A stretch of 58,552 nucleotides of DNA, taken from positions 45,089-103,640 of the forward strand of contig JAJYLG010000002.1 in NCBI GenBank assembly GCA_021787985.1. Direction: 5' to 3'. Made by a program: the position numbers and the translations under genes. The stretch's first letter is position 1; every line of letters starts with the position of its first letter. The stretch is from Chloroflexota bacterium. GTDB lineage: Bacteria; Chloroflexota; Dehalococcoidia; DSGV01. A model generated the notes under the pieces. That model had not been told where the DNA came from and did no database searches. It saw only the letters and a program-made list of their open reading frames with translations. Positions 5,297 through 51,121 of the stretch are shown here, piece by piece.

Positions 5297-6204
5297 GCCG
5301 ACTCCAGCTCAGCTTCGAGCTTCCGCAATTGGGCGAGACGCTGCTCGATCGACGGGTGGGTGGAGAAGAGCGAGGCGAGCGATTCGCGGCTGAAGGCCGG
5401 CACGATCATCAGGGCGCTGGCGCCCTCCACCTTGCGCAGGTCGCGGTTGGGGATGCGTGCCATCGCCCCGCTGATCTTCATCAGCGCCGAGGCAAGCTGC
5501 GACGGCGCGCCGGTCATGATGGCGGAGCCGCGGTCGGCGGCCAGCTCGCGATAGCGCGACAGGGCGCGGATGAGGAAGAAGCTGATTAGCCAGACCAGGA
5601 TCGACGCCAGGTAGACCAGCACGATCGCGCTGGCGCCCTCGTCCCGCTCGCGGCGGCCGCCGCCATAGCCGCCCATGAGGCCGAACCACATGCCCATCTG
5701 CACGATGAAGGAGGCCACGGTGGCGAAGAAGCTGGCGATGGTCAGCACCGCGACGTCGTGGTTCTTGACATGCGTCAGCTCGTGGGCGATCACCGCCTCC
5801 AGCTCCGGCTCGTCCAGCCGGTTCATGATGCCGGTGGTGACCGCGACGACGGAGTGCTTGGGGTTACGGCCGGTGGCGAAGGCGTTGGGGGCGTCGGTAT
5901 CGATGATCGCCACGCGGGGCTTCGGCAGGTCGAACTGAGCGGCCAGCCGGTCGATCAGGGCGTGGAGCTGGGGGGCCTGCTCGGGCGTGACGGTGTGCGC
6001 CCCGACGCTGGCCAGCACCATCTGGTCGGAGAAGAAGTACTGTACCGCGAGCATCCCGCCGGCGATGAGGGCGATGATGATGAAGCTCACGCCGGCGGCC
6101 CACAGAACCGCGATGAACAATAAGTAGACGGCGGCGAGCAGGAAGGAGGTAAACGCCATTCGCGCCGTCAGCCCGCCGTCGCGGGGAAGCTTGCGCTGTG
6201 CCAT
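5293..6204 (-). CDS. htpX: Membrane zinc metalloprotease HtpX (M48)
   Basis: The 303-aa protein has two N-terminal membrane helices (about 16-37 and 40-58) and the zinc-protease motif HELTH at 141-145 followed by KNHD. A second hydrophobic pair (about 155-215) follows, then the distal metal-ligand region SRYRELAADRGSA. HtpX degrades misfolded membrane proteins. ATG 6204 is preceded by GGGAGG, and it is the first gene of the operon with pspAB, pspA and pspAA. An extended -10 (TGCTAGAAT on the minus strand) lies 27 nt upstream of the start. The length is typical for the family. Confidence 0.93.
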   Translation of the reverse strand: MAQRKLPRDGGLTARMAFTSFLLAAVYLLFIAVLWAAGVSFIIIALIAGGMLAVQYFFSDQMVLASVGAHTVTPEQAPQLHALIDRLAAQFDLPKPRVAIIDTDAPNAFATGRNPKHSVVAVTTGIMNRLDEPELEAVIAHELTHVKNHDVAVLTIASFFATVASFIVQMGMWFGLMGGYGGGRRERDEGASAIVLVYLASILVWLISFFLIRALSRYRELAADRGSAIMTGAPSQLASALMKISGAMARIPNRDLRKVEGASALMIVPAFSRESLASLFSTHPSIEQRLAQLRKLEAELESA

Positions 6205-47243: not shown

Positions 47244-48449
47244 TCAGCGCCCCGGCAGGTAGCCGAGCGGGTTCACCGGGTGCCAGGCGCCGCGATGCAC
47301 CTCGAAGTGCAGGTGCGGCCCGAAGCACCAGCCCGTGCAGCCGACGCGGCCGATCACCTGCCCTTGCGCCACGACCTGCCCCTCGTGCACGGCGATCTGT
47401 GACAAGTGGGCGTAGAGGCTGTAGATGCCACCGCCGTGGTCGATGCGCACGAAGTTGCCCCAGCTCGAGTCGTATCCCGCGCTCACGATGCGGCCGTAGG
47501 CGACCGCGCGGACCGGGTCGCCGTAGCCGGCGTGGATGTCGATGCCGTGATGCCCGCGCGGGTGGTAACTATCCACCACGCCGAAGCCGACGCCGAACAC
47601 CGAGCCGGGCACCGGCCAGATCCAGGCCGTGCCGGGCGCCGGTGGACGGGGCGGCGCGGGCGGCTGGCTGGGAGAGGGCGCGACGGCGCCGCCGCCGGGC
47701 GGTGCGGGTGACTGGCCGGGAGAGGGCGCGGAGGGCGGTGGCAGCGGCAGCTTGCCGTCCGGAATCAGGAGCGTCTGGCCCACGAACAGCAGGTTGCGCT
47801 CCTGCAGGCCGTTGGGCTTGAAGTTGAAGATCTTGTCGGCCTCGGACTGGAACGTCTGCGCGATGCCGATCAGCGTGTCGTTCTGACGGACGTCATAGAT
47901 GATGCCGTCGACGGGCGGCACGCGGATCTGCTGGCCCACGGTGATCAGGTCGCCCGACCCCAGGCCGGGGTTGTTGGCGAGCAGCGTCGCGACATTGAGG
48001 CCGTGGGCCGCTGCCACGCCGGAGAGCGTGTCTCCCGGCTGCACGATGTGGACGGTGAAGAGCGGCTGTGGCGGCTCGTCGGAGGCGATCTCGACCGGCT
48101 GCCCGTCGCCGCTCAGCGCCCCGGCAGCCTGCGTGATCCGACCGGCCGTCGTCGTTCCCTGCTGCGGAGGGGCCGCCTGCCCCGTGGGTGCGGTGTCGCG
48201 CGCCGCCGCCTCGGCGATGCGCTGGGATCCGCCCGGGATAGCCGCGCGCAGCGACTCGCCGCCGAAGACGGCCGGCGATACGAGGCCGACCTGCACGCCC
48301 GGGCGCGGTTCGCTGCGCCCGATCGTGACGCCGCTGGCCAGGCCGACCAGCGCGGCGCCGAGCGCAGCCGCCAGCACCGCCGCGTGGAGGCGTCGCCGCC
48401 GTCCGGAGATGCCGTGATGCGTCGCCCGTGATACGCGCGGCAAGGGCAC
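47244..48449 (-). CDS. LysM-M23 peptidoglycan peptidase (1)
   Basis: The 401-aa protein starts at GTG 48449. An N-terminal helix (about 20-45) exports or anchors it. Two LysM modules follow (HIVQPGDTLSGVAAAHGL and YDVRQNDTLIGIAQTFQ), then a Pro-rich linker. The C-terminal M23 (LytM-type) domain has HHGIDIHAGYGDPV and HLHFE, the two zinc-ligand motifs, so it is predicted to be active. It is likely an endopeptidase acting on the cell wall. It begins 7 nt after the paralogous gene. Confidence 0.88.
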   Translation of the reverse strand: MPLPRVSRATHHGISGRRRRLHAAVLAAALGAALVGLASGVTIGRSEPRPGVQVGLVSPAVFGGESLRAAIPGGSQRIAEAAARDTAPTGQAAPPQQGTTTAGRITQAAGALSGDGQPVEIASDEPPQPLFTVHIVQPGDTLSGVAAAHGLNVATLLANNPGLGSGDLITVGQQIRVPPVDGIIYDVRQNDTLIGIAQTFQSEADKIFNFKPNGLQERNLLFVGQTLLIPDGKLPLPPPSAPSPGQSPAPPGGGAVAPSPSQPPAPPRPPAPGTAWIWPVPGSVFGVGFGVVDSYHPRGHHGIDIHAGYGDPVRAVAYGRIVSAGYDSSWGNFVRIDHGGGIYSLYAHLSQIAVHEGQVVAQGQVIGRVGCTGWCFGPHLHFEVHRGAWHPVNPLGYLPGR

Positions 48450-48456
48450 GGCGAGC

Positions 48457-49695
48457 CTAGGGCAGGAACGCCAGCGGGTTCATCACCCGCCCGTAGTAGC
48501 GGATCTCGAAGTGCACGTGCGGCCCGGTGCTGTAGCCGGTGTTGCCGCTGTAGCCGATGACCTGTCCCTGGGAGACCCGTTGGCCGATGTGGACGGGCGG
48601 CGGCTTCATCATGTGCCCGTAGCGGGTCACCCAGCCGTTGCCGTGGCTGATCTCGACGTAGTAGCCCAAGCCGCAACATGGGTCGCCGCCGGCGAAGGCG
48701 ACGACACCCGCCGAGGCCGCGACGATCGGCGCGCCGGGCGTGTGGTACTGGTCGATGTCGATGCCGTGCGGGTGGCTTGGGCCGCAGTAGGAGGTGATGA
48801 TCCCGTGCGCCGGCCAGATGAAGCTCGGCGCGCCCGCGATGCGGCCGCCGCAAAGGCCGCCCGAGCTGGGGATGTCGGGCGTGGGCCGCGGCGCCGGCTG
48901 GGAGCTCGGCTGGCTGGTCGGAGCGGCGGGTGACGGGGCCGGGGGCGGGGTAACCGGGGCCTGCGGCTTTCCGCCCGGTACCAGGATGAGCTGCCCGTTG
49001 TGGATGTCGTTCGCGTTGCTGATGCCATTGGGCGCGAAATCGATGATCGCCTGCACGGTCACGCCGAAGCTCTGCGCGATGGTGCTCAGCGAGTCACCAA
49101 GGCGCACGTGGTACAGGATGCCGTCCGCTCCCGGAACGCGGATGACCTGGCCGACGATGAGTGTGTCCTTGTCGGTCACGTCGGGGTTGGAGCTAAGGAT
49201 GCTCTGTACCGAGACCCCGTACCGTTGCGCCAGCCCGGAGAGCGTGTCGCCGGACTCGACGCGGTGGTCGTGGTAGAGCTGCAGCAGCACCGGCGTCGGG
49301 GGCGCGCTGCCGAGCGCGGCGATCGGCGCCGGGGTGGGCGTGGGAATGACGATCGTACGGAAGTCACCGAGTGACTGCTCGGCCGCCTGGGTGGCGCTGA
49401 GACCGGGGAGCGCGCGGAGCGCGGCGTGGCCGCTGGCGCGGCTCTCGGCGACCCCGCCGGGCAGGGTCAGGTCGGTCAGCAGGAGGCGAGGGGTTGGCTG
49501 TGAAAGAGTGGTGCCCCGAACAGAGATAACAACGCCCGCCACGGCCGCGAGCATGGCCAGCACCAGGAAGTGAGTAACCGGCCGGCGGCCGAGCCGGCGC
49601 TGGCTGCCTCGCCCCGTGTCATTCGACGCATCCCTGCGAGTGACATGCGCGGCGCCGCTGCCGTGGCGCCGGCGCAGGCTGAGTGGGCCGTAAAT
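48457..49695 (-). CDS. LysM-M23 peptidoglycan peptidase (2), probable ATT start
   Basis: The layout is membrane helix, two LysM modules (HRVESGDTLSGLAQRYGV and YHVRLGDSLSTIAQSFGV), Pro/Ser linker and M23 domain (PHGIDIDQYH, HVHFE). The frame has no ATG or GTG upstream of GTG 49563, which lies inside the membrane helix and has no ribosome site. The in-frame ATT at 49695 lies 8 nt after a perfect AAGGAGG (49710-49704). Starting there gives 412 residues with an Arg-rich cytoplasmic N-terminus before the helix. ATT is a rare start known from infC. I prefer it, with the GTG as the fallback. Confidence 0.8.
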   Translation of the reverse strand: MYGPLSLRRRHGSGAAHVTRRDASNDTGRGSQRRLGRRPVTHFLVLAMLAAVAGVVISVRGTTLSQPTPRLLLTDLTLPGGVAESRASGHAALRALPGLSATQAAEQSLGDFRTIVIPTPTPAPIAALGSAPPTPVLLQLYHDHRVESGDTLSGLAQRYGVSVQSILSSNPDVTDKDTLIVGQVIRVPGADGILYHVRLGDSLSTIAQSFGVTVQAIIDFAPNGISNANDIHNGQLILVPGGKPQAPVTPPPAPSPAAPTSQPSSQPAPRPTPDIPSSGGLCGGRIAGAPSFIWPAHGIITSYCGPSHPHGIDIDQYHTPGAPIVAASAGVVAFAGGDPCCGLGYYVEISHGNGWVTRYGHMMKPPPVHIGQRVSQGQVIGYSGNTGYSTGPHVHFEIRYYGRVMNPLAFLP

Positions 49696-49703
49696 GACTC
49701 ACG

Positions 49704-49710
49704 CCTCCTT
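49704..49710 (-). promoter_or_regulatory. Shine-Dalgarno AAGGAGG setting an ATT start
   Basis: Minus-strand AAGGAGG is followed by the 8-nt spacer CGTGAGTC and then ATT in the frame of the LysM-M23 gene. An in-frame TGA at 49701-49699 precludes any start further upstream. The GTG within the spacer is only 1 nt from the SD and leads to a different, short frame. Confidence 0.6.
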
Positions 49711-49858
49711 GGCCGGAAGCGGACTCGCGCGCCCGCGGGTTCCCCGACATTATACCTGTGCGTCAAGTCACAAACAGCGACGGCGGTCCAGATTCGCCGA
49801 GCCGCCGCCCCGATTCGCGAGGTCGTACCGAAGGAGCAGCCGCGGAGCGGCGGCCCCG

Positions 49859-51121
49859 CTAGACCTCTTGTTTGATCGTGTCCAGGAACTCCTGGTTGCT
49901 CCCGGTGCGTGACAGCCGCTCCAGGAGCCGTTCCGTGCTCTCCGTGGGATTCGGCGAGTTCGACTGGATGGCCGCGATCATGCGCCGCAGCAGGTAGACC
50001 TGCCGCAGCGTGCGGTCGTCGAGCAGCAGCTCCTCGCGGCGGGTGCTGGAGCCGAGGACGTCGATCGACGGGAAGATGCGCCGTTCGGCCAGCCGCCGGT
50101 CGAGGCGTACCTCCATGTTCCCGGTGCCCTTGAACTCCTCGAAGATGACGTCGTCCATGCGCGAGCCGGTGTCGACCAGGCAGGTGGCGATGATCGTCAG
50201 GCTGCCGCCCTCCTCGCACTTGCGGGCCGCGCCGAAGAAGCGCTTGGGAGGGTAGAGGGCGATCGGGTCGATGCCGCCGGAGAGCGTGCGCCCGCTGGGG
50301 GGCATCGCCAGGTTGTAGGCGCGCGTGAGGCGGGTGAGCGAGTCCATCAGGATGACGACGTCCTTGCCCATCTCCACCAGGCGCTTGGCGCGCTCCAGCG
50401 CCATCTCCGCCACGCGCGTGTGGTCCTCGACGGGCTCGTCGAAGGTCGAGGAGATCACCTCGCCGTCCACCGACCGCTTCATGTCGGTGACCTCTTCCGG
50501 CCGCTCGCCTACCAGGACGACCATCAGGTGGATGTCGTCGTAGTTGTAGGTGACGCCGTGGGCGATGTTCTTGAGCAGGATGGTCTTGCCGGCCTTCGGT
50601 GGCGAGACGATGAGCCCGCGCTGGCCGCGGCCGATGGGAGCGATCAGGTCGATGAGGCGGCCGGAGAGGTTGTCGCCCGTGGTCTCGAGCCGCATGTGCT
50701 CCCTTGGGAAGATGGCGGTGAGCTGGTCGAAGTAGGGCCGGCCACGCGCCGTCTCCGGGTCGACGCCGTTGACGGTGTCGACCCGCAGCAGGCCGTAGTA
50801 CTTCTCGGAGTCCTTGGGTGGCCGGATCTGGCCCGTGATGAAGTCGCCGGTGCGCAGGGCGAAGCGGCGGATCTGCGACTGCGAGACGTAGACGTCGTTC
50901 GGGCCGGGCAGCAGGCTCTCACCGCGAATGAACCCGTAGCCGTCGTCAACGATCTCGAGGATGCCGCCGGCGTAGAGCTGGCCTTGAGCCTCGGCGGTCG
51001 ACCGAAGGATGCGATAGATGAGCTCCTGTCGCCGCAGGCGGGCCGGATCGGTCAAACCGAGGCCCTCGGCGACCTCGACCAGTTCGTCGCGCGACTTCGT
51101 CTCGAGTTCCGCGATATTCAC
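49859..51121 (-). CDS. rho: Transcription termination factor Rho
   Basis: The 420-aa hexameric RNA helicase starts at GTG 51121. It has the Rho N-terminal helix region, the RNA-binding cold-shock-like fold ([18 protein letters not shown]), Walker A PPKAGKT, Walker [13 protein letters not shown], and Q/R-loop region [28 protein letters not shown] and [11 protein letters not shown] are typical. The length equals that of standard Rho without insertion. The scarcity of T-run terminators in this window fits strong use of Rho. Confidence 0.97.

Follow-up and report, generated by a model that had tools for sequence, protein, structure and literature searches.

According to the excerpts of PMC5472188 on which we draw, dependence on a non-canonical start codon has been demonstrated for few bacterial genes besides infC. 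The same excerpts describe autoregulation of infC by initiation factor IF3, the destabilisation by IF3 of complexes on non-canonical starts, and the GTC start of sigR in Streptomyces, a gene mis-annotated in databases, whose protein becomes less abundant with more IF3 and more abundant in IF3 fidelity mutants. For Staphylococcus aureus, extracts of PMC13009471 report that initiation is lowered at the AUU start of cvfC1 and the AUA start of ccpN, which have extended Shine-Dalgarno motifs, and that the AUU of cvfC1 lowers output with no effect of the medium. In vitro, with AUU and the normal initiator anticodon, raising IF3 to 1.5 uM reduced the share of fully started product to 31.1% (PMC10158994, in extract).

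The gene described here lies in a 58,552-nucleotide stretch of DNA from a Chloroflexota bacterium (contig JAJYLG010000002.1), referred to below as the window, and encodes a LysM-LysM-M23 peptidase whose proposed start codon is ATT. We consider it highly probable that this start, and the AUU, AUC or AUA (AUH) starts of its homologues, are real and conserved. The gene shares the conserved AUH start with infC, which also has one in these genomes, but infC encodes the repressor itself whereas the product here is a wall peptidase, and the Shine-Dalgarno sequence of the peptidase gene is often the stronger of the two, as judged by eye and uncounted. Like sigR, as excerpted in PMC5472188, it is a gene outside the translation machinery with a conserved non-canonical start; unlike sigR, its codon is AUH and not GTC, and the IF3 effect is experimental in sigR whereas the peptidase is known from sequence. 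With ccpN and cvfC1 it has in common a conserved AUH start behind a strong Shine-Dalgarno sequence, although those genes encode a regulator and a small protein of S. aureus and are backed by experiments (PMC13009471, in extract). The M23 proteins TagE, ShyA and DipM, found among the PDB matches, have the M23 domain with HxH, and some matches cover the LysM part; the window protein differs from them in its one N-terminal helix, its AUH start and its longer motif HPHGID. AUU and AUA starts with strong Shine-Dalgarno sequences, and IF3-repressed GTC starts, are thus already published. What is new here is that the product is a wall peptidase and that the AUH start is conserved in many families of one class; among the matches listed in our literature search, mostly open papers, none describes an AUH start for an M23 or LysM gene.

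The peptidase gene and its start region

The peptidase frame runs for 413 codons from stop to stop (Table 1). Its product scored 95.4 bits against Pfam PF01551 (Peptidase_M23; cut-off 28.7) and 85.5 bits, over two stretches, against PF01476 (LysM; cut-off 20.9). We infer that it is a membrane-anchored peptidoglycan peptidase, with a predicted action on the wall. The zinc ligands of M23 peptidases are provided by HxGxD and HxH at canonical spacing. In the window the first of these motifs reads HPHGID, one residue longer than HxGxD, and the His of this motif lies one residue further in 8 of 12 aligned rows, the window included; HPLGID is found in seven aligned relatives, and the usual HxGxD spacing in L008, L012, L013 and L014. 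The HxH motif and the Asp are invariant across the 12 rows.

Table 1. Positions of the peptidase gene, its start region and its neighbours in the window
Feature	Position	Strand	Remarks
Second LysM-M23 gene, directly downstream	47244-48449	-	42% identical to the first in the matched part
LysM-LysM-M23 peptidase gene	48457..49695	-	412 codons, counted from ATT to the TAG stop inclusive
Stop codon TAG of the peptidase gene	48457..48459	-	
M23 peptidase domain	48475..48768	-	Pfam; HxH motif present (HVH)
Second LysM domain	48976..49113	-	residues 196-241; model LysM3_LYK4_5
First LysM domain	49132..49266	-	residues 145-189 of the stop-to-stop frame
Hydrophobic helix THFLVLAMLAAVAGVVISV	49519..49575	-	putative single membrane anchor, from hydropathy
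ATT, proposed start codon	49693..49695	-	Shine-Dalgarno spacing; ATT/ATC/ATA at the corresponding place in homologues
In-frame TGA stop	49699..49701	-	rules out a start further upstream
Shine-Dalgarno sequence AAGGAGG	49704..49710	-	8-nt spacer to ATT
TATAAT, possible -10 element between rho and the peptidase gene	49749..49754	-	consensus only, by eye
rho, upstream neighbour	49859..51121	-	about 160 bases ahead of the peptidase frame

What the preliminary description had read around the ATT is borne out by the window: the codon at 49695 stands 8 nt behind AAGGAGG, the in-frame TGA at 49701 bars a longer form, and translation from ATT gives an Arg-rich N-terminus of about 40 residues ahead of the helix. 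The possible -10 element is accompanied by no good -35 when read by eye. No ATG, GTG or TTG occurs ahead of the helix in the peptidase frame of the window. The first such codon, GTG 49563, falls within the hydrophobic stretch THFLVLAMLAAVAGVVISV; it had been described as the only canonical start, lying in the helix without a ribosome site, and its position and the missing site stand, but it is followed by ATG 49554 and GTG 49542. By eye, we saw no Shine-Dalgarno sequence in the 20 bases upstream of each of the three codons. Initiation at GTG 49563, which its position within the helix and its choice by a finder limited to ATG, GTG and TTG speak for, would shorten or remove the anchor and leave the conserved upstream part untranslated. 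We give it very little credence: besides the missing Shine-Dalgarno sequence, the first canonical codon of locus L004 (same place as L032) is codon 83, beyond the helix, and the segment between AUH and the helix shows conservation at the protein level.

The window contains two copies of AAGGAGG-N8-ATH where 0.07 would be expected, one of them lying in no long frame, and taken from the window alone the motif is therefore suggestive only; we accept the start at ATT because the homologues decide. The second occurrence, AAGGAGG-N8-ATT at 6143-6160 on the plus strand, lies within a 47-codon frame and is probably due to chance.

The second LysM-M23 gene begins with a GTG 7 nt past the first gene's stop codon; by eye no Shine-Dalgarno sequence precedes this GTG, and the arrangement suggests translational coupling of the second gene to the first.

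AUH starts in homologues

Homologues were searched for in 60 relatives and then in 393 genomes of the class, with 127 genomes at E <= 1e-60; the small single-contig genomes of family f14 are without the peptidase gene. We read 30 and a further 60 loci, and then 39 as a later sample, under one rule: a Shine-Dalgarno match of 5 nt or more, placed 5-10 nt ahead of an in-frame codon that itself lies 70 to 5 codons before the helix. The count covers 89 loci, the window included and L060 (G107, one of the 90) left out. ATT, ATC or ATA fitted the rule in 35 of the 89, that is 35 of the 60 outside family f33, with the fitting codons 29-47 codons before the helix. Every locus matched in f17 (9/9), f59 (7/7), f66 (3/3), f60 (2/2), f70 (2/2) and, with one locus each (1/1), f1 (the window's genome alone), f31, f36 and f53; f25, f34 and f50 gave 2/3 each, f2 2/24 and f33 0/29. 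Eight loci of further families gave 2/8, one match each in f3 and f46 and none in f16, f22, f23, f41 or either f4 locus. One f25 match by the rule, L169, is a second gene copy with an ATG of its own also present; in the 35 AUH loci picked by hand, L169 is out and L040, with a 4-nt Shine-Dalgarno match, is in.

The later sample, counted under the same rule with L302, L303 and L306 left out, gave 8/12 in f59, 2/2 in f70 and 1/2 in f31, and none in 23 loci of f2 (0/2), f4 (0/2), f21 (0/9), f23 (0/2) and f33 (0/8). A different, second LysM-M23 type with canonical codons before the helix was noticed at the f59 loci L316, L319, L321 and L322. Three of these (L316, L319 and L322) are misses with canonical starts, while L321, counted as a match, is doubtful since it resembles the second type and has an ATG adjoining its ATA; the remaining f59 miss, L326, has no helix in view.

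Since the window's family is a single genome, a draft in 189 contigs, a sequencing error or assembly frameshift might have removed an ATG, as the preliminary description had allowed. The same arrangement is found in 14 further families besides f1, from other assemblies (f2 with only 2/24), and recurs in the later f59 and f70 loci; an error is thus excluded by independent genomes, and the probability we leave to it is negligible.

The start codon varies, with ATT in 16, ATC in 16 and ATA in 3 of the 35 loci, and no ATG turned up at the AUH place in a motif scan that also allowed this codon. Over all loci, within the region before the helix to which the rule applies, a Shine-Dalgarno site of the rule type precedes 35 of 132 ATH codons versus 117 of 4237 other codons; many of the 117 are the next-door codon, and as the loci are related the small Fisher value is no true probability.

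Conservation begins at the AUH codon. The protein reads I-x-G-T-L-S-P-R, or near it, in f17, f25, f36 and f60 (L040 of f25 diverges after I-D-G-T), I-Y-G-P-L-S in the window, I-P-G-T-L-R in f31, I-R-[DEG]-P in f59 and I-Q-A-I-[KN]-K-R-T in two f66 loci. From AUH to the helix, differences at codon positions 1/2/3 were 0.29/0.17/0.59 in f66, 0.33/0.29/0.43 in f17 and 0.33/0.30/0.47 in f59, and 0.53/0.30/0.49, which is not the coding order, in the two f60 sequences (47 codons). By this comparison the stretch appears coding-like in three of the four groups tested (f66, f17 and f59). Further upstream, positions -60 to -19 (42 bases) show differences of 0.57-0.93 and no regular pattern in an ungapped comparison, which inflates differences.

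Among the 35 picked loci, the interval from the in-frame stop to the helix is free of ATG, GTG and TTG in 17 and contains some canonical codon in 18; from AUH to the helix, 23 have none. An in-frame stop lies 4-15 codons upstream in 7 of 9 f17 and both f60 loci, and in several loci of these two families an in-frame TAG overlaps the Shine-Dalgarno sequence itself, which leaves no room for a longer protein there, and a start further downstream would cost the conserved part. Variation among ATT, ATC and ATA would be expected also of an internal Ile codon, and it is solely the nearby in-frame stops that exclude this.

Ribosomes could also reach the frame from a start further upstream, through frameshifting, reinitiation or readthrough. 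In the window GTG 49702, in another frame, overlaps the TGA, sits 1 nt after AAGGAGG and by eye opens a short frame; at L005 (same place as L041) an in-frame GTG comes right after GGAGG, three codons before the ATT, and at L047 one stands two codons before the ATC. However, L047 is alone among the nine f17 loci in having such a GTG, the f59, f60 and f66 loci have none by eye, and the conserved feature is a Shine-Dalgarno sequence with AUH at 5-10 nt spacing. Upstream entry is accordingly most improbable in our estimation, and initiation at AUH is the reading we retain.

The AUH start is not tied to rho: within an upstream stretch of at most about 1.5 kb, rho was seen on the same strand in none of the nine f17 loci. 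Judged within that distance, rho lies upstream on the same strand in the window, in f2 (20/24), f33 (25/29), f59 (7/7), f66 (3/3) and f60 (2/2), and in some loci of other families; the rho-M23 gene order is kept in many relatives, not all.

A possible hairpin at the start codon was seen by eye: short complementary arms GAGC/GCTC surround the codon in f17, f25, f36 and f60 and are not common to other families, and in the window (f1) arms TGAGT/ACTCA surround it (49701-49680, minus strand); a stem search across families found no common stem at the start codon. We also considered whether downstream codons pair with the Shine-Dalgarno sequence and so sequester it, and rejected this, the longest pairing averaging 3.91 versus 4.01 in codon-shuffled sequences over 35 loci.

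General start usage, infC and canonical lineages

Start usage in general was surveyed over 400 kb of G099, an AUH genome of f60, in which a simple script based on codon usage called 326 genes; the stretch includes infC (122 kb) and excludes the peptidase gene (663 kb). Behind Shine-Dalgarno sites we counted ATC in 8/389, ATT in 4/167 and ATA in 4/154, like other codons, and ATG in 62/384, TTG in 17/194 and GTG in 24/353. A general relaxation of start usage was rejected for this stretch: ATC, ATT and ATA are not enriched, so AUH starts are no general habit there.

As the positive control, infC of the window's genome reads CGGAGG-tccgagc-ATC. The conserved first codon of infC is AUH in all 35 non-f33 genes read as DNA, the window's genome included, in a count from which upstream canonical codons were not excluded gene by gene (infC of G033 has an ATG two codons ahead of its AUH). 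Left out of it were L202, L226, L275 and L296, where the pattern was unreadable, and L274, L277, L282, L283 and L285-L288 of f2, available as peptide only; 9 of 60 genomes searched gave no infC match.

In f33 an ATG of the peptidase gene precedes the helix by 19 codons in 23 of the first 29 loci, and in 11 f33 loci the sequence ATG-GGN-AT[CT]-GAR-GGA places an ATG two codons before the AUH place; no f33 ATG in the pre-helix region has a Shine-Dalgarno match of 5 nt or more. The eight f33 loci of the later sample carry GTG, TTG or ATG in differing positions, none of them an ATG 19 codons before the helix. infC of f33 begins with TTG-AGR-(AAR or AGA)-CGA in all six genes (L204, L205, L208, L211, L217 and L276). 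Homologues with an in-frame ATG at another site, which the preliminary description had envisaged as evidence against the ATT, therefore exist, but in one family, in which infC starts with TTG.

Four f2 peptidase loci have TTG at the AUH place, and infC, readable in three of these four genomes, has retained ATC in all three, so the two starts do not switch strictly together. With one family (f33) and the f2 exceptions, a link between infC and peptidase starts is a hint only. The canonical starts of f33 and the four f2 loci also mean that the weak start is not indispensable. Most f2 loci are without a strong Shine-Dalgarno site. Two f2 loci with the same genus label read ATG-GAG-CCG-CTC-ATC (L185) and ACG-GAG-CCG-CTC-ATC (L184); this pair may record the gain or loss of a canonical start just upstream of AUH.

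Twenty homologues of other classes (L254-L273, with poor helix calls in L255 and L260) have canonical codons, and the sole AUH behind a Shine-Dalgarno match of 5 nt or more among them is an ATT in L273, 81 codons before the helix. No clear AUH case was seen in the 16 examined of 80 named loci; L062, on the same contig as G001, has an ATT behind GAGG only. The loci of other classes are weaker homologues, which makes the absence of AUH there a soft result.

Initiation at a probably weak start

AUH recurs in many families behind a Shine-Dalgarno sequence, though one substitution would give ATG, and this supports a start that is weak on purpose, as had been proposed from the window, where the comparison of first codons in homologues was also foreseen. 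On balance we incline to low, IF3-controlled initiation as that purpose. In these bacteria AUH is presumably read by the initiator tRNA as fMet, weakly. A strong Shine-Dalgarno sequence would recruit the 30S subunit to the AUU start, where IF3 would reject the mismatched pairing of AUH with the initiator tRNA and initiation would stay low; by analogy with the described systems, IF3 probably represses the peptidase start, and output would track the ribosome-to-IF3 ratio as it does for infC. A potentially dangerous wall hydrolase would thereby stay scarce and in step with translation capacity, and selection would keep the weak start in much of the class. An excess of wall peptidase would presumably be harmful, which would select for a weak start.

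It is also possible, if less probable, that the AUH start is real and weak and that IF3 has no regulatory role, the level being low and constitutive and set by the Shine-Dalgarno sequence. The same sequence evidence applies to this reading, and the AUU of S. aureus cvfC1, as reported in the extracts of PMC13009471, is a precedent for lowered output with no medium effect. Yet a weak promoter or a weak Shine-Dalgarno sequence would suffice for a low level, whereas a strong site and a bad codon are kept together, and f33, which is standard in both infC and the peptidase gene, hints at a link, in one family only. We keep IF3 control as the preferred reading.

A wider and more tentative proposal is a small IF3 regulon in the class, in which conserved AUH starts would dose both IF3 and a membrane-anchored wall hydrolase through the ratio of free IF3 to ribosomes; if it were true, wall opening would be tied to translation capacity. 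The canonical start in both infC and the hydrolase gene of f33 might fit such a regulon, a reading we put forward with similar caution. The retention of such a start by a wall peptidase in many families points to start-codon discrimination as a possible link between wall growth and translation; the lineages with canonical codons (f33 and part of f2) are natural controls. Finders limited to ATG, GTG and TTG are likely to mis-annotate the gene, cutting it into the membrane helix.
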